A model generated the notes under the pieces. The model did no database searches, was not told the origin of the DNA, and saw only the letters and a list, made by a program, of their open reading frames with translations. A stretch of DNA of 33,926 bases from assembly GCA_905480405.1 (NCBI GenBank), contig CAJQQH010000132.1, positions 1 to 33,926 on the forward strand, read 5' to 3'. Made by a program: the position numbers and the translations under genes. Shown piece after piece: positions 11,928 to 17,986 of the stretch; position 1 is the first letter of the stretch; every line of letters begins with the position of its first letter. Source of the stretch: an uncultured Polaribacter sp. GTDB lineage: Bacteria; Bacteroidota; Bacteroidia; Flavobacteriales; Flavobacteriaceae.

Positions 11928-13175
11928 TTAATCTAACGACTCTCCACTTAAAAAATATTTTTTTTTAATATCTTTTAATCGTCTCCTAACAAAGTTTGCC
12001 ATGTCTTCATCTTTATCAGAAAAGCTATCTATATATTTATTGTAATGTTTATAAGCTATCTTTTTATCCTTATAATAATCATCAGATAATTTTGCTAATT
12101 GAAACAATGCTTTATAATTTCTTCTATTTTCTAAATATGCTTTTTCAAAGGCTTTTATAGCTTTATTTGGCATTTTTGTTTCATAAAAAGCAGTTGCCAA
12201 ACCATAATACTCCTCATCTCTTTTTTCTTTTCCTATAGAGGTAGCCATCATATAATTCATCATTGCAGATCTATAATCTTTCTCTTTTAAAGCAATGTGA
12301 CCTAAATAAGTTTGAGTTTTAAAATTCTCTCTATCCACTCTATATAATTTTTTAAAATATTTTTTTGACTGTTCGAGGCTGTCTAAATTATAATAAGTTC
12401 TACCTAACATCGATTTACTATAGGTCTCTTTTTTATCTAAAGAATCTAAATTTAATAAAAACGGAATTGCTTCTTTATACTTCTTATCTCTATATAATTG
12501 ATTGATTTTTAATTTATTTAAATTGATATGATTCCTATCTAAGAACAATCCTTTATCTACAAATAATTTGGTAGAATCTTTATCTTTCAATTTATTAAAA
12601 CTTGTGGCTAATCTTGCAATTGCATTTAAGTGAAGTGTATCTTTTTTATAAGCATCTATAAAACTATTAATCATTAAGTTTCTTTTGCCTTGTATAGAAA
12701 AAGATAAACCTAATTGATAGGAGTAATTGGCATTTGTTTCATCTTTACTAATTAAGTGCTTAAAAGTATTTACAGCCTTTTCGGGTTTTCTAGTAAGGAG
12801 ATACAACTTACCAAGTTGATATTTTAAAACCAGGTTCAAAGAGTCTTTTGCTAAAATTTCTTCATAAATTTTTATTGATTTATCTCTTTTATTTAATCTT
12901 TGATACGTTTTTGCTAATTTTAATTTCGCTTTTTTATTCTCTTTAAAAACAAGTGCTTTTTCTAAAAATGTAGCAGTTTTCTTATAATTATCAATCGATT
13001 CATAAATAACAGCTTTTTTGTAGTTAGATAAAAAAGAGGGCAATTTTAAATCTAGTTCTTGTAAAGCTAGTTGATATCTTCCATTTTCAAATAAACTATC
13101 AGAAACCATAAAAGTCGAAGTTTGCGCTTCGACTTTTACAATACATAATAATACAACTAAAACTTTCTTTTTCAT
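11928..13175 (-). CDS. Secreted TPR-repeat protein
   Basis: The 415-residue protein starts with a signal peptide (MKKKVLVVLLCIVKVEA, with Q18 as likely mature start). It is then made of roughly nine tetratricopeptide-like helix pairs, for example ENGRYQLALQEL, RDKSIKIYEEILAKD, PEKAVNTFKHLISKD, QSKKYFKKLYRVD and PNKAIKAFEKAYLEN. TPR arrays act as protein-binding scaffolds, and location in the periplasm is inferred from the signal. It begins 10 bases after the second M56/TonB hybrid in the same direction, so it is very probably co-translated with it. No catalytic motif is seen. Its partner is plausibly one of the M56 or TonB_C proteins. Confidence 0.9.
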   Translation of the reverse strand: MKKKVLVVLLCIVKVEAQTSTFMVSDSLFENGRYQLALQELDLKLPSFLSNYKKAVIYESIDNYKKTATFLEKALVFKENKKAKLKLAKTYQRLNKRDKSIKIYEEILAKDSLNLVLKYQLGKLYLLTRKPEKAVNTFKHLISKDETNANYSYQLGLSFSIQGKRNLMINSFIDAYKKDTLHLNAIARLATSFNKLKDKDSTKLFVDKGLFLDRNHINLNKLKINQLYRDKKYKEAIPFLLNLDSLDKKETYSKSMLGRTYYNLDSLEQSKKYFKKLYRVDRENFKTQTYLGHIALKEKDYRSAMMNYMMATSIGKEKRDEEYYGLATAFYETKMPNKAIKAFEKAYLENRRNYKALFQLAKLSDDYYKDKKIAYKHYNKYIDSFSDKDEDMANFVRRRLKDIKKKYFLSGESLD

Positions 13176-13185
13176 TGGTTAAATT

Positions 13186-14499
13186 TTATTCTACTAGTAT
13201 CACAAATGGGATATTATAATTTACAGCAACTTTCTCTCCTTTATTTTCTCCAGGAGTCATTTTTGGTAAAGAATTCATCACTCTTATAACTTCTTCTTTA
13301 ATATTTATATGTGGAGCTTTTGCTCTAACATCTACAACATTACCTTCAATATCAATTTTAAAACCTATAAAAACTCTTTTTTTTCCTGCTGATAAACCTA
13401 GTGTTTTCGGTAAATCGCTATCAAAATTTTTTATAAAATGTTTTTGTACACTTGTCGAAAAACATTTTTTATCACCAGTTTCACAACCAGGAAAAGTTGG
13501 TGATTTATCAATTGACATAAAAGAAACTCTTTCCGTTTCTACTTTTTCAATATTTTTCTCTTCTTCACTTCTTAGTGTTGCTAATTCATCAATTAGCTCT
13601 GCAATTCTTGCCTCTTTTGTTATGGGTTCTTTTACTTCTTCGGGTGAACAAGATGTATAAAATAACATACTTGCTAGCAAAGGAATAATTACTAGATACT
13701 TTAATTGATTTCTTTTTTTCGATTTGTTTTTTGTCATCATAATAATTCTTTTTTTAATTAATGTTTGTTTATAAAATTGATTGACAAACGAAATGTTTTC
13801 AACCTGAAAAAAGTTGGATAGTAGATTATTCATATAGGTTTCTTTATCTTCTTGTTTTGCTACAATTGCATCAGAAATATATTCATGTACAAGCGTAATT
13901 CTTTTTTGATAGAAATATATCATAGGATTAAACCACATCATAATTTTCAAAACCTCAAACATTAATAAATCTAAAGAATGCTTTTGTTTGCTATGTACTA
14001 ATTCGTGTTCTATAATTTTCGCTCTCTTTACTTCCGTAATTCCCTTACCTAAAAATACATAGTTAAAAAACGAAAATGCTTTTGTCTGATTCGGAATAAG
14101 AATCAACGTAAAACCGGGTTGCTTCAAAACTTCATTTTTTTTAATTAAATGAACAATCTTAACCAGTTTTATTAAAAATAATATTGAAAAAAAAGTGACT
14201 CCAATCCAAAATAAAATTGAAATAGAATTTATAGATTGATAAAAAGAAGTTTCATTAATTACATTCTTTATTACCTTTTGTGGTGATAAAACAAACTCTG
14301 GTAAATACACTATATATTCTTGAGGAACTGCTTTTTGAAACGTTGGTATTTTTATAAACGGAATTAAAAAAGACAAAACGGGTGTACTTAATAAATACCA
14401 TCTATTTTTAGTAAAGAATGTTTCTTTGCTTAGAAAGAAATCATAAACAACCAAAAATAAAATTTGGAATACTATGACTTGAAAGATGTAGTTTATCAT
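13186..14499 (-). CDS. BlaR1-like M56 metalloprotease with a TonB_C domain (copy B)
   Basis: The 437-residue membrane protein is of the BlaR1/MecR1 antirepressor class. Membrane segments lie near 5-22, 36-50 and 92-117. The zinc protease site is HELVH (165-169), with HEYISD (205-210) giving the third ligand E206. After the protease comes MMTKNKSKKRN (254-264) and a hydrophobic run ending FYTSC (280-284), which has the shape of a lipoprotein signal peptide inside the protein. A Glu/Lys coiled linker (about 297-325) follows, then a TonB_C-like domain (334-437) with PTFPGC and a second cysteine six residues later. Family members cleave a BlaI repressor when a periplasmic signal is sensed. It lies downstream of its near-twin, 11 bases apart. 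Substrate and ligand are unknown. Confidence 0.9.
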   Translation of the reverse strand: MINYIFQVIVFQILFLVVYDFFLSKETFFTKNRWYLLSTPVLSFLIPFIKIPTFQKAVPQEYIVYLPEFVLSPQKVIKNVINETSFYQSINSISILFWIGVTFFSILFLIKLVKIVHLIKKNEVLKQPGFTLILIPNQTKAFSFFNYVFLGKGITEVKRAKIIEHELVHSKQKHSLDLLMFEVLKIMMWFNPMIYFYQKRITLVHEYISDAIVAKQEDKETYMNNLLSNFFQVENISFVNQFYKQTLIKKRIIMMTKNKSKKRNQLKYLVIIPLLASMLFYTSCSPEEVKEPITKEARIAELIDELATLRSEEEKNIEKVETERVSFMSIDKSPTFPGCETGDKKCFSTSVQKHFIKNFDSDLPKTLGLSAGKKRVFIGFKIDIEGNVVDVRAKAPHINIKEEVIRVMNSLPKMTPGENKGEKVAVNYNIPFVILVE

Positions 14500-16055
14500 A
14501 AATTTTATTTTTATAATACAGAGAAAGTAATTGGTAATATATACTTTGCTTTAATAGGTTTACCATATTTTTCTCCATGACTCATTATTGGTAAAGAATT
14601 CATTATTTTTATTACTTCATCCTTGATAGTTTTACGAGAAGCTCTAACTTTTAAATCAGTAACATTTCCTTTTAAATCAATATTAAATTCCAAATTCACC
14701 TTTTCTTTTCCTGGTCTTAAACCTAAATTATTAGTGATATTGCTATTAAAATTAGTGTCAAAATGTTCTTGTAATTTCTCTAAGAAACAATCTGAGTCTC
14801 CTTTTTCACATCCTGGAAAAGTAGGTGTTTTTTCTAATCTTGTAAATAAAAGTTCATCACCAATATCATCAGGATGAATAGAATTTAAACCTTTAAAAGC
14901 AACTCCAATAGAAACCCTACCGTTTGGCATTCTAAAAAATCTAAATCCGTTATTATTTTTAAGCTTCGGATATTTTTTAAGAATAGTAATCTGTTTCTCA
15001 TAAGGTTCACTAAACTCTTCCTTTTCTTTTTTTGATAAATTTTGAAATGAAATTTCTTTAAACTCTTTTGGAAGCTCTTCTCCAAAATACGAATCTAAAT
15101 AAGTTTCTTTATTTCCTTTAAAACTAAATAACTTCCCATTACTACTTCTATAAATTGTTTGAAGTTTCATTTCTGATGAAATATCATTTAAAGGAGAAAC
15201 TGAACAAGATGAATACAATAACATACTTGCTAAAACAGGAACCAAAACCAAATACTTTAATTGATTTATTTTTTTCGATTTGTTTTTTGTCATCATAATA
15301 ATTCTTTTTTTAACTAATGTTTGTTTATAAAATTGATTGACAAACGATATGTTTTCAACCTGAAAAAAATTGGATAGTAAATTATTTATATAAGTTTCTT
15401 TACTTTCTGATTTAGCAACAATAGCATCAGAAATGTATTCATGTACAAGCATAATTCTTTTTTGATAGAAATAAATCATAGGATTAAACCACATCACAAT
15501 TTTTAAAACCTCAAACATTAATAAATCTAAAGAATGCTTTTGTTTGCTATGTACTAATTCGTGTTCTATAATATTTACTCTCTTTGTTTTGGTAATTTCC
15601 TTACCTAAAAATACATAGTTAAAAAACGAAAATGCTTTTGTCTGATTTGGAATAAGAATCAACGTAAAACCAGGTTGTTTCAAAACTTCATTTTTTCTAA
15701 TTAAATGAACAATCTTAACTAGTTTTATTAAAAATAATATTGAAAAAAAAGTGACTCCAATCCAAAATAAAATTGAAATAGAAGTTAAAGATTGATAAAA
15801 AGAAGTTTCTTTAATTACATTTACTATTTCCTTTTCTGGCGATAAAACAAGCTCTGGTAAATACACTATATATTCTTGCGAAACTGCTTTTTGAAACGTT
15901 GGTATTTTTATAAACGGAATTAAAAAAGACAAAACTGGTGTACTTAATAAATACCATCTATTTTTAGTAAAGAATGTTTCTTTGCTTAGAAAGAAATCAT
16001 AAACAGCCAAAAATAAGATTTGGAATAATATGACTTGAAGGATGTAGTTTATCAT
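13648..16055 (-). repeat. Tandem duplication of the M56 protease segment
   Basis: Codons 1-284 of the two adjacent M56 genes (15204-16055 and 13648-14499) encode proteins differing at 29 positions by my count, about 90% identical. Identity stops one residue after the putative lipobox cysteine 284. The sensor linkers beyond it are unrelated in length and sequence, while the terminal TonB_C domains are only distantly similar. Confidence 0.88.
14511..16055 (-). CDS. BlaR1-like M56 metalloprotease with a TonB_C domain (copy A)
   Basis: The 514 residues have the same N-terminal build as copy B: membrane helices near 5-22, 36-50 and 92-117, HELVH at 165-169, HEYISD at 205-210, then MMTKNKSKK and a hydrophobic run ending LYSSC (280-284). 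After C284 it differs completely, with a linker of about 120 residues (285-410) that includes an FRMPNGRVSIGVAF stretch. A TonB_C-like domain (about 410-514) then starts PTFPGC, with the second cysteine six residues on. Presumed role: membrane protease that inactivates the BlaI repressor encoded 28 bases upstream. The two copies look like sensors with a common protease module and different outer domains. Confidence 0.9.
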   Translation of the reverse strand: MINYILQVILFQILFLAVYDFFLSKETFFTKNRWYLLSTPVLSFLIPFIKIPTFQKAVSQEYIVYLPELVLSPEKEIVNVIKETSFYQSLTSISILFWIGVTFFSILFLIKLVKIVHLIRKNEVLKQPGFTLILIPNQTKAFSFFNYVFLGKEITKTKRVNIIEHELVHSKQKHSLDLLMFEVLKIVMWFNPMIYFYQKRIMLVHEYISDAIVAKSESKETYINNLLSNFFQVENISFVNQFYKQTLVKKRIIMMTKNKSKKINQLKYLVLVPVLASMLLYSSCSVSPLNDISSEMKLQTIYRSSNGKLFSFKGNKETYLDSYFGEELPKEFKEISFQNLSKKEKEEFSEPYEKQITILKKYPKLKNNNGFRFFRMPNGRVSIGVAFKGLNSIHPDDIGDELLFTRLEKTPTFPGCEKGDSDCFLEKLQEHFDTNFNSNITNNLGLRPGKEKVNLEFNIDLKGNVTDLKVRASRKTIKDEVIKIMNSLPIMSHGEKYGKPIKAKYILPITFSVL

Positions 16056-16083: not shown

Positions 16084-16449
16084 TTACTCATTTCTTTTAT
16101 TCACTTCTTTTAAAATGGATTCTAATTCTGTAACATCCATATTATTTTCTTTTACAAAAAAGGAAACTAAGCTTTTAAATGATCCATCGAAATAACCATT
16201 CATAAGTTTATGCAAACTTTGGTTACTATAGGTTTCTTTATCAATTATAGCATAATACACATATCCTCTACCTTTTGGTTTGTGCGCTACAAATTCTTTA
16301 GTTTCTAAAATTCTTATGATGGTAGAAACTGTATTATATGCAGGTTTAGGTTCTGGTAATTTTTCGATAACTTCTTTTACAGATGTTTCTTCTAAATCCC
16401 AAAGAACTTGCATAATTTGCTCTTCTGCTTTTGTTAATTGTTTTTTCAT
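16084..16449 (-). CDS. blaI: BlaI/MecI-family transcriptional repressor
   Basis: The 121-residue protein has the penicillinase-repressor winged helix: LTKAEEQIMQVLWDLEET (5-22), a recognition-helix region PAYNTVSTIIRILETK (36-51), and the wing KPKGRGYVYYAI (57-68). The C-terminal dimerisation part (about 70-121) includes SLVSFFVKENN (93-103), around the position where BlaI/MecI proteins are cut by their BlaR1/MecR1 partner. The family represses its own operon through palindromic operators. Here the only strong palindrome is at 17400-17433, before the first gene. It sits 5 bases after the DUF4350-like gene and just before the two M56 genes. No beta-lactamase gene is present, so resistance should not be assumed. 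Confidence 0.93.
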   Translation of the reverse strand: MKKQLTKAEEQIMQVLWDLEETSVKEVIEKLPEPKPAYNTVSTIIRILETKEFVAHKPKGRGYVYYAIIDKETYSNQSLHKLMNGYFDGSFKSLVSFFVKENNMDVTELESILKEVNKRNE

Positions 16450-16454
16450 AATCT

Positions 16455-17372
16455 TTAATTTTTACTTAACCAGTAAATTAAATTTCTAATAAATTGAATA
16501 TTATTTGGAGCTTGTTCTGAATGAAAACCAAACTTATAAGTAACAGAATCATTTGTTATTGTTTGTGCTGTAAACATTGCTGCTTCTCCAAAAACAGCTA
16601 TTTTTCCTTTTCCAAATTCCAAAATTGCACCTTGATAATTGTTTTCTAAATCAGAACTTGGTGTGTCATCATTAAATCTCCAAGCAATTTCAGGTGCCAA
16701 ACAATAATCTTCTTTTTTAAACTTTAAAATTCCTTTTGCTTTTTTAGGAATTGAAAATGAAGAACCAGTAAATGTGGTAATATTATCTATTTTTTCACCA
16801 ATAGTTCCATCAGAAATAACAGTGTTTAAAAATCGATTATTATTAATAGAAAATATATCAGGAGCATTTCTATCCTCTTTCTGTTGATATGCAAAACCAT
16901 CACAAAAATCAAAACCAAAAGCATTTGCTAATTTATTTGTAGCTCCAGAAAATGGCATATGATCTGCAATTAATAATAGCCTACCTCCTTTTTTAACCCA
17001 GTTTTTTATGAATCTGATATCTTCCTCTGAAAATGCATTATAAATAGGTTGTCTCCAATTGCGAATATTTTTTTGATTTATTGGGTTTGAAATTACTAAA
17101 ACATCATTTTTAAGTATTTTTTTTACGTCAATAATACTATCTAATTGATATCCATCATTGGTCATTAAATCTGCAAAAGGTTTAAATCTTCCATTTAGTT
17201 GATGAAAGTTATGATGACTTTGATCTATCAAAATCCTTGCTCCTTTTCCTTTTTCAAATCTTGGATTTTCTATTTCAGGCACAATAATATTATCAGCTCT
17301 TTGTTGCGTAAAACTTACATCAGCAATTAAAAAAGCTATTAAAAATAGAATTTTAGGCACTATCTTCTTCAT
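16455..17372 (-). CDS. Secreted GATase-like/DUF4350-like protein, first gene of the BlaI operon
   Basis: The 305-residue product carries a signal peptide (residues 1-22, ending DVSFTQ). The rest looks like a class I glutamine-amidotransferase-like Rossmann fold: ARILIDQSHHNF (46-57), DVLVISNPI (about 89-97), a helix then KKGGRLLLIADHMPF (about 127-141), and GKIAVFGEAAMF near 254-265. These match the DUF4350 type of ligand-binding domain. There is no catalytic nucleophile Cys in the usual place, so a binding role is more likely than hydrolysis. It ends 5 bases before blaI and follows the palindrome-controlled promoter, so it is the first gene of the repressed operon. What it binds is unknown. 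Confidence 0.82.
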   Translation of the reverse strand: MKKIVPKILFLIAFLIADVSFTQQRADNIIVPEIENPRFEKGKGARILIDQSHHNFHQLNGRFKPFADLMTNDGYQLDSIIDVKKILKNDVLVISNPINQKNIRNWRQPIYNAFSEEDIRFIKNWVKKGGRLLLIADHMPFSGATNKLANAFGFDFCDGFAYQQKEDRNAPDIFSINNNRFLNTVISDGTIGEKIDNITTFTGSSFSIPKKAKGILKFKKEDYCLAPEIAWRFNDDTPSSDLENNYQGAILEFGKGKIAVFGEAAMFTAQTITNDSVTYKFGFHSEQAPNNIQFIRNLIYWLSKN

Positions 17373-17392
17373 TATAAATATATTTTACCATA

Positions 17393-17400
17393 CAAATGTA
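17393..17400 (-). promoter_or_regulatory. -7 box of the BlaI operon
   Basis: On the minus strand this reads TACATTTG, an exact TAnnTTTG match. It lies 20 bases upstream of the ATG at 17372 and directly abuts the 34-bp palindrome, which fills the spacer and the -33 region. Confidence 0.72.
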
Positions 17401-17433
17401 ACTAAAAAATTAGTTTAAACTAATTTTTTAGTT
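17400..17433. promoter_or_regulatory. Perfect 34-bp palindrome, candidate BlaI operator
   Basis: The half-site AACTAAAAAATTAGTTT (17400-17416) is followed at once by its exact reverse complement (17417-17433), with no mismatch and no spacer. Each arm itself contains an imperfect smaller palindrome (ACTAAAAAATTAGT). The site lies between divergent start codons (17372 minus, 17486 plus). It touches the minus-strand -7 box and covers the candidate -33 TTG of the + strand gene. Its position fits a repressor operator. Assignment to BlaI is inferred from the encoded regulator. Confidence 0.75.
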
Positions 17434-17459
17434 GAAATAATTGTAACAAACTAACTTTT
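17432..17459 (+). promoter_or_regulatory. Candidate promoter of the DUF456 gene
   Basis: TTG (17432-17434) is followed 17 bases later by TAACTTTT (17452-17459), close to TAnnTTTG. The TTG overlaps the right end of the palindrome, so this promoter may be controlled by the same repressor. Confidence 0.45.
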
Positions 17460-17485
17460 TGCTCGTCGAACAAGTAAATTAAGTT

Positions 17486-17986
17486 ATGGATATTTTATTT
17501 TTTATATTAGGTTTTGTCTTTGTAATATTAGGCATTATTGGCGCTTTCTTACCAATATTACCAGGGCCATTAACAAGTTGGATAGGTTTATTATTTTTAC
17601 ATATGACCAAAATTATTCCTTTAGATTATACCTTTTTAGGAATTACATTGGCTATTGCCTTACTAATTTGGGTGTTAGATTATTTTATCCCCGCAATAGG
17701 TACAAAACGTTTTGGAGGTACAAAATACGGCGTTTATGGTACTACAATTGGTTTAATTATAGGCTTACTATCTCCTATTCCCTTCGGTATGTTATTAGGC
17801 GCTTTCTTTGGGGCATTCTTTGGGGAATTATTATATGACAAAAAAGACACCAATAGAGCGTTAAAAGCTTCATTTGGTGCCTTTGTAGGCTTTTTAGCAT
17901 CAGCAACTATTAAATTTTCTATAGCAACTGTTTATCTAATTTTATTTTTTATAAAATTCTGGGAATATAAAAGCGAGTTCTTTTAA
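17486..17986 (+). CDS. DUF456 family membrane protein
   Basis: The 166 residues form four or five membrane segments (about 2-22, 50-68, 83-110, 125-160). They have the glycine- and proline-rich DUF456 pattern: LGIIGAFLPILPGPLTSWIG (15-34), DYFIPAIGTKRFGGTKYGVYG (65-85, central KRFGG), and a duplicated GAFFGAFFGELLYD. The function of the family is not established to my knowledge. It is divergent from the BlaI operon and shares the palindromic control region. It converges on the PhnA-like gene with only 5 bases between the stop codons. Confidence 0.9.
   Translation: MDILFFILGFVFVILGIIGAFLPILPGPLTSWIGLLFLHMTKIIPLDYTFLGITLAIALLIWVLDYFIPAIGTKRFGGTKYGVYGTTIGLIIGLLSPIPFGMLLGAFFGAFFGELLYDKKDTNRALKASFGAFVGFLASATIKFSIATVYLILFFIKFWEYKSEFF

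Follow-up and report, generated by a model that had tools for sequence, protein, structure and literature searches.

Two 16-bp dyads in conserved tandem as a candidate BlaI operator at the head of a BlaI/M56 operon in Polaribacter

The window analyzed here, a stretch of 33,926 nucleotides from an uncultured Polaribacter sp., contains at positions 17400-17433 the sequence AACTAAAAAATTAGTTTAAACTAATTTTTTAGTT, and this locus raises the question of what the element is and which of its neighboring genes it would control. The sequence is identical to its own reverse complement, with two 17-nt arms and no spacer, as the initial annotation had described. The G+C content of the window is 28.8%. When the window was shuffled 200 times with its dinucleotides preserved, perfect arms reached 13 nt at most, compared with the 17 nt observed. 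The structural examination of the palindrome revealed the layout AACTAA-AAAA-TTAGTT, TA, AACTAA-TTTT-TTAGTT, that is, two 16-bp dyads whose centers are 18 bp apart and which are joined by a 2-bp linker. The unit adjoining the promoter of the blaI operon, AACTAAAAAATTAGTT, is located at 17400-17415, and the distal unit, AACTAATTTTTTAGTT, at 17418-17433; both follow the consensus AACTAA-N4-TTAGTT of 202 units and, like the palindrome as a whole, are assigned to no strand. This anatomy supports the earlier proposal that the length of the site suits two dimers. Based on the sequence and its comparison among relatives, we consider it very probable that the palindrome is a conserved tandem operator, at which two BlaI dimers would bind and block the operon promoter.

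The position of the palindrome relative to the promoter was examined. On the minus strand, a predicted sigma-A -7 box of the blaI operon, TACATTTG, occupies 17393-17400. The consensus of this box is TAnnTTTG, and passages of PMC9723704 on F. psychrophilum give its position as -12 to -5. It had been claimed that the site abuts an exact TAnnTTTG box of the BlaI operon, and this was borne out, with a single base (17400) common to both elements. When TACATTTG is taken as the -12 to -5 box, the operator falls at about -45 to -12 and the transcription start is predicted at about 17388, while the first operon gene begins with an ATG at 17372. Among the relatives, the exact TAnnTTTG was found in the matching register at 70 of 96, and TAnnTTWG at 80 of 96.

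These positions also bear on whether the palindrome could be a bidirectional transcription terminator or an RNA hairpin. When folded as RNA, it yields -15.8 kcal/mol, which is a good fold for its composition (z -5.76), and its arms are A/T-rich. However, both neighboring genes start alongside the palindrome and point away from it, as stated in the initial annotation, and the palindrome would not be part of the operon mRNA, since it lies upstream of the predicted transcription start. Moreover, the relatives keep the dyads and their spacing while mostly breaking the full symmetry, and the 34-bp palindrome is perfect in only 18 of 96 of their operators. We therefore agree with the previous view that a terminator is unlikely, and regard this explanation as hardly credible.

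The operon is encoded on the minus strand. Its first gene (16455-17372, 305 aa) lies between the operator and blaI and is DUF4350-like at sub-threshold level; all of its Pfam matches (ABC_transp_aux, DUF4350, and GATase1_like) are sub-threshold, and its named homologues, which come from Polaribacter, Tenacibaculum, and others, are labeled hypothetical or DUF4350-domain proteins. Among 29 same-genus loci, this gene was found between the operator and blaI in one (L217, 72% identity), and another (L232) contains a related stretch of 47 residues at the same place. Based on this sporadic occurrence, the operon head seems to gain or lose genes. The next gene, blaI (16084-16449, 121 aa), encodes a Penicillinase_R repressor (PF03965, E 5.8e-32), which is the likely ligand of the operator. 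By sequence, its residues 4-119 match PDB chains of MecI and BlaI with E-values from 8e-10, for MecI, to 5e-9. It is followed by two adjacent genes for BlaR1-like M56 peptidases, one of 514 aa (14511-16055; PF05569, 3.5e-11) with a weak TonB_C-like C-terminus (0.0011, sub-threshold), and the other of 437 aa (13186-14499; PF05569, 2.9e-12; TonB_C 0.0032, also sub-threshold). A TPR protein of 415 aa (11928-13175), separated from the M56 gene by a gap of 10 bp, likely belongs to the same operon. The two M56 proteins encoded at 13186-16055 are highly alike by eye, including their sub-threshold TonB_C-like ends, and are of the BlaR1 type without a recognized penicillin sensor: Pfam recognized no penicillin-binding sensor domain on either protein, reporting M56, the sub-threshold TonB_C and, on one of them, a weak M48 match, and the NCBIfam model blaR1_generic, whose cut-off is 400 bits, scored them at 30.8 and 29. 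Among the operon genes, no beta-lactamase was found by Pfam, and no copper export genes by gene content and Pfam.

We then compared the locus with its counterparts in other genomes. BlaI was searched in 199 genomes of the family and matched in 153 of them; in the same genus, 42 of 58 genomes contained a match. Orthologues (BlaI-1) and paralogues were split at a gap in the best E-values (1.9e-38 versus 5e-33), and 110 orthologous loci from the high-scoring group were examined (L018-L127). In a tree built from few columns and with an unsettled bootstrap, 109 orthologues were set apart by a supported branch (100/94). The spacing was 18 bp at 103 of the 110 loci and 17 bp at six, and the remaining locus is a contig end and unassessable. 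Thus the palindrome was not absent upstream of orthologous operons, which the initial annotation had named as a check of its proposal; the tandem was present at 109 of 110. Within 600 bp upstream of blaI, the pair was found at 96 loci with 18 bp and at five with 17 bp. The nine loci without a pair in this range are the present window, the contig end, and seven others, in which the tandem lies further upstream, ahead of the gene that opens a longer operon (six at 18 bp and one at 17 bp, by eye). In six of the seven loci in which genes intervene before blaI, DUF456 lies directly across the operator, again by eye. The candidate operator is thus an element that keeps to the operon head where genes intervene before blaI, including in the present window. 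In the same genus, the tandem was found at 18 bp in all 29 loci examined out of 38 further orthologous places, and 14 of these were perfect palindromes.

The genome-wide distribution of the tandem follows that of the repressor. At two or fewer mismatches, the 18-bp tandem was present in 102 of the 108 family genomes with an orthologous blaI and in none of the 91 without it (Fisher p about 4e-50, with genomes counted as independent and kinship uncorrected). Five of the six exceptions have a 17-bp tandem, and in the sixth a contig end truncates the locus. A reversed control pattern matched in 1 of 199 genomes (G133), compared with 102 of 199 for the tandem. Placement beside blaI is known for the tandems among the matches listed, thus not for every tandem genome-wide; G018 has two 18-bp matches, and G144 has an 18-bp match away from blaI while the pair of its own blaI is spaced by 17 bp. 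At the order level, the tandem was found in 25 of 196 genomes, some of them from families beyond that of the window. The sequence and its comparison among relatives establish that this element is built of two units, that their spacing is fixed at 17-18 bp, that a -7 box abuts it, that it strictly co-occurs with the BlaI-1 clade, and that it keeps its position at the operon head. The co-occurrence and the 29 of 29 same-genus loci support the earlier interpretation of a repressor site, most simply for the BlaI of the operon itself.

A perfect palindrome in an A/T-rich genome might also be a mobile-element end, a recombination site, or a product of chance. However, the tandem is mostly a single copy per genome, the present genome contains one at two or fewer mismatches, and it recurs in 101 of 198 genera scanned. 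Its register to the -7 box is fixed, arms in shuffled sequence reach no more than 13 nt, and of 3000 base-shuffled upstream regions, in which base composition alone was preserved, one contained a pair at 12-30 bp. The probability of this explanation is close to nil.

In the preferred reading, that of a tandem BlaI operator, the recognition unit can be delimited by the conservation among the 202 units. A2, C3, T4, and A5 together with T12, A13, G14, T15, and T16 are essentially invariant, A6 and T11 reach 95-97% each, and 186 of the 202 units have both. The four bases at the center are variable and mostly A/T. The linker is TA in 68 of 96 operators, and the 17-bp variants shorten the linker and leave the outer 16-mers intact. 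Because the linkers vary and the 17-bp variants keep both units, the 16-mer is likely the recognition element. The initial annotation had recommended a motif search with the central TTAGTTTAAACTAA, but the outer 16-mer is more likely as the unit. The central 14-mer was dropped as a candidate unit for the same reasons of linker variation and retained 16-mers.

The N4 spacers of the two units showed mirror covariation. They were mirror-complementary in 20 of 96 operators; permutation gave an expectation of 12.0, and 2 of 5000 permutations reached the observed number (kinship ignored). Of the 34 operators with a left spacer other than AAAA, 6 had mirror-complementary spacers, compared with 1.05 expected (1 of 5000, kinship ignored). 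The same-genus operators gave a weak excess of 15 of 29 over 12.5 (129 of 5000 as high, kinship ignored). This covariation suggests symmetric selection or copying from arm to arm. Separately, in the operator of L239 (tandem from 961, in blaI orientation), one unit has a rare base at position 11 and the other has its complement at position 6, and this pairing leaves the 34-bp palindrome perfect.

Next, we compared the element with known systems. The extended CopY operator is RNYKACANNTGTMRNY, and its TACA/TGTA core is termed necessary for CopY in the available passages of PMC7253601. The cop operator of CopY/CopR is likewise a 16-bp dyad, in register with the present unit, and each unit here matches 9 of the 12 specified positions. 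According to the same passages, two operator copies are located upstream of the S. pneumoniae cop operon, like the paired units here. In the core ACA/TGT, however, positions 6 and 11 are C and G there and A and T here, and the copper export genes and the Cys-X-Cys repressor of CopY/CopR have no counterpart here, where the 121-aa BlaI contains no cysteine. The earlier statement that the palindrome is unlike the classic operator is therefore correct for the missing TACA/TGTA core but too strong for the 16-bp unit, given its alignment with RNYKACANNTGTMRNY.

The BlaI/MecI systems of S. aureus and B. licheniformis share with the present locus the repressor family PF03965 and an M56 BlaR1-type partner in the operon. 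As in these systems, the promoter of the operon that encodes the repressor has a dyad, which holds for 109 of 110 orthologous loci. The bla/mec divergons also have their repressor sites between divergent genes, as proposed here, and B. licheniformis has three such operators (passages of PMC3305447). In contrast, the TACA-N2-TGTA core of BlaI/MecI operators is replaced here by units with A6 and T11, a 2-bp linker joins two units into a single 34-bp palindrome, neither a beta-lactamase nor a PBP sensor domain on the M56 proteins was found, and the divergent gene is DUF456 with an ECF-like promoter. In Clostridium thermocellum, EMSA showed binding of BlaI proteins to GACTAT/GTCTAT repeats, and the authors inferred an ordered set of sites for four protomers (passages of PMC8457756). 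As described there, BlaI_0696 and BlaI_1845 resemble the present case in their ACTA-type repeats (GACTAT), in paired dyads for four protomers, and in small regulons around the repressor's own operon with BlaR1 genes. The arrangement differs: in C. thermocellum, either GTCTAT is repeated at a distance of five nucleotides or single GACTAT repeats come in pairs, compared with AACTAA-N4-TTAGTT here. Since the unit aligns with the CopY operator and the C. thermocellum sites would hold four protomers, two dimers per site are a natural inference. Among the titles listed in a literature search, none concerned a BlaI operator in Bacteroidota, which does not imply absence in print as subscription journals were mostly outside its reach; the passages of PMC12578637 do not mention a BlaI repressor, and "M56" is a reagent number there.

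Here, we need to consider that the palindrome might be the operator of another repressor encoded elsewhere, its link to blaI being incidental. The lack of the classic TACA/TGTA core in the unit, and the five examined tandems that lie away from blaI (L155-L159), would be consistent with this. It is nevertheless very unlikely, because the presence and absence of the tandem follow BlaI-1 across the 108 and 91 genomes, a paralogous BlaI clade has similar ACTA-N6-TAGT dyads upstream, and the C. thermocellum BlaI proteins bind repeats of the related type.

Another consideration is the divergent DUF456 gene (17486-17986, plus strand, 166 aa; PF04306, 2.8e-39), which the palindrome might mainly control, or share as a switch of both divergent promoters. 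The head-to-head layout is common, with DUF456 in 84 of 117 locus records at BlaI-1 loci (seven places counted twice) and at 21 of 29 same-genus loci. ECF promoters have the form AAC-N16-CGT. We found a predicted ECF-type promoter of DUF456 at 17443-17467 on the plus strand by sequence and conservation, consisting of GTAAC (17443-17447), N16, and CGTC (17464-17467); passages of PMC9723704 describe an ECF-type motif of F. psychrophilum with a CGT box in its -10 region. The search for GTAAC and CGTC permitted N15-17, and every match had N16. For comparison, 35 of the 91 genomes without BlaI-1 were searched; 29 had DUF456, and 27 had usable upstream DNA. At BlaI-1 loci, 46 of the 84 DUF456 genes have GTAAC-N16-CGTC and 80 have the tandem upstream; of the 27 from genomes without BlaI-1, 10 have GTAAC-N16-CGTC and none has the tandem. 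In 34 of the loci tabulated, the operator ends 5-10 bp from GTAAC, a proximity in favor of DUF456 control; in the window this distance is 9 bp and the core promoter elements are clear of the operator.

Since the operator ends 9 bp ahead of GTAAC without overlap, direct control of DUF456 is not supported. The initial annotation had placed the palindrome over the -33 region of DUF456 as part of a divergent promoter pair under direct control. The overlap could not be confirmed, because the sigma-A-like -7 candidate TAACTTTT (17452-17459) was inexact and spotted by eye, while the conserved GTAAC-N16-CGTC is clear of the palindrome; nor is the direct control of the pair supported, because the tandem at DUF456 genes goes with the presence of BlaI-1. 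A sigma-A promoter of DUF456 overlapping the operator was dropped, as the GTAAC-N16-CGTC pair is conserved both with and without BlaI-1. Most likely, DUF456 has its own ECF-type promoter and any effect of the operator on it is at most secondary, and we judge it unlikely that the palindrome mainly serves DUF456 or switches both promoters.

For the favored BlaI operator, we propose the following mechanism. Each AACTAA-N4-TTAGTT unit would bind one BlaI dimer, and two dimers side by side would cover about -45 to -12, so that RNA polymerase could not enter and the operon would repress itself. Upon an envelope signal, the M56 (BlaR1-like) membrane proteases of the operon would cut BlaI, and this cleavage would release the operon for the 305-aa protein, BlaI, the two M56 proteases, and the TPR protein. 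The cleaved bond of BlaI is N101-F102 according to passages of PMC3305447, and it corresponds, via the MecI alignment, to F97-F98 in the BlaI of the window. Because of this substitution and the M56 proteins without a recognized sensor domain, proteolytic release is the weakest step of the proposal. The analysis yields an operator consensus ready for use with a BlaI/M56 system that is widespread, probably belongs to the Flavobacteriaceae to judge from the named homologues, and has M56 partners without a recognized penicillin sensor; with this consensus in hand, the BlaI/M56 regulon and its signal become testable.

The paralogous clade, BlaI-2, showed a different spacing. Its members are 42-50% identical to the BlaI of the window (20 loci), and we examined 40 BlaI-2 loci (L128-L147 and L166-L185), which are the best-scoring second-tier matches and not a random sample. 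With a single unit pattern applied to both clades, the ACTA-N6-TAGT dyads of BlaI-2 loci were spaced by exactly 20 bp at 29 of 40 loci, by 24 bp at one, and at none by 17 or 18 bp; often two or three dyads follow at exactly 20-bp steps. Of the 11 loci without a 20-bp pair, ten have no pair in 600 bp and L185 has its pair at 24 bp. Four of them (L131, L141, L181, and L185) encode long-branch proteins beyond the well-supported paralogue clade; in the tree, 36 paralogues lie on one side of a branch (100/89), with few columns and an unsettled bootstrap. The genome-wide scans covered 18, 19, and 20 bp and differed in stringency (AACTAA-N4-TTAGTT with two or fewer mismatches for 18 bp; AACTA-N6-TAGTT with at most one for 19 and 20 bp). 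In these scans, 20-bp pairs were found in 106 of 199 genomes, 66 of which also have BlaI-1, and in none of the 46 genomes without any BlaI match; a scan of the present genome found no 20-bp pair.

What is new here is that BlaI-2 dyads mostly lie at 20 bp and BlaI-1 dyads at 17-18 bp, with 19-bp pairs in only 1 of 199 genomes. The spacing may help to keep BlaI-1 and BlaI-2 apart. It need not be the sole discriminator, because positions 6 and 11 differ (14 of 75 BlaI-2 units combine A6 with T11, compared with 186 of 202 BlaI-1 units), and residue 37 near the presumed recognition helix is A in BlaI-1 and H in BlaI-2. Based on these observations, we tentatively suggest, at somewhat less than an even chance, a spacing code in which two often co-resident BlaI paralogues read near-identical ACTA-N6-TAGT dyads at 17-18 bp or at exactly 20 bp, with 19 bp almost unused, so that spacing and bases 6 and 11 would separate the regulons, and in which the mirror covariation of the N4 spacers would reflect a 34-bp unit kept as one symmetric assembly or copied from arm to arm. 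The contrast of 18 and 20 bp between the sister repressors is a natural experiment that shows how cross-talk might be avoided between paralogous transcription factors whose half-sites are almost identical.

Finally, we looked for further sites. In the present genome (92% complete), no tandem was found away from blaI. A regulon of single units in this genome was also rejected, as the two other exact units (L005 and L006) sit within open reading frames; units with at most one mismatch numbered 65 per strand compared with 49 for the reversed pattern, which is near background. In two other genomes, 18-bp tandems away from blaI (L155, 1560-1593; L157, 1512-1545) are located ahead of homologous proteins. 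These proteins are identical at 219 of 504 aligned positions (43%), show weak TPR matches, and are at least 507-532 aa long, as their frames reach the locus ends. The two tandems give a hint of putative further BlaI-1 targets and a wider regulon. The present genome also encodes a second, divergent BlaI (L002, 1-2035, G000:C94), and its upstream sequence CTACATTTGTAG contains the classic TACA-N2-TGTA.
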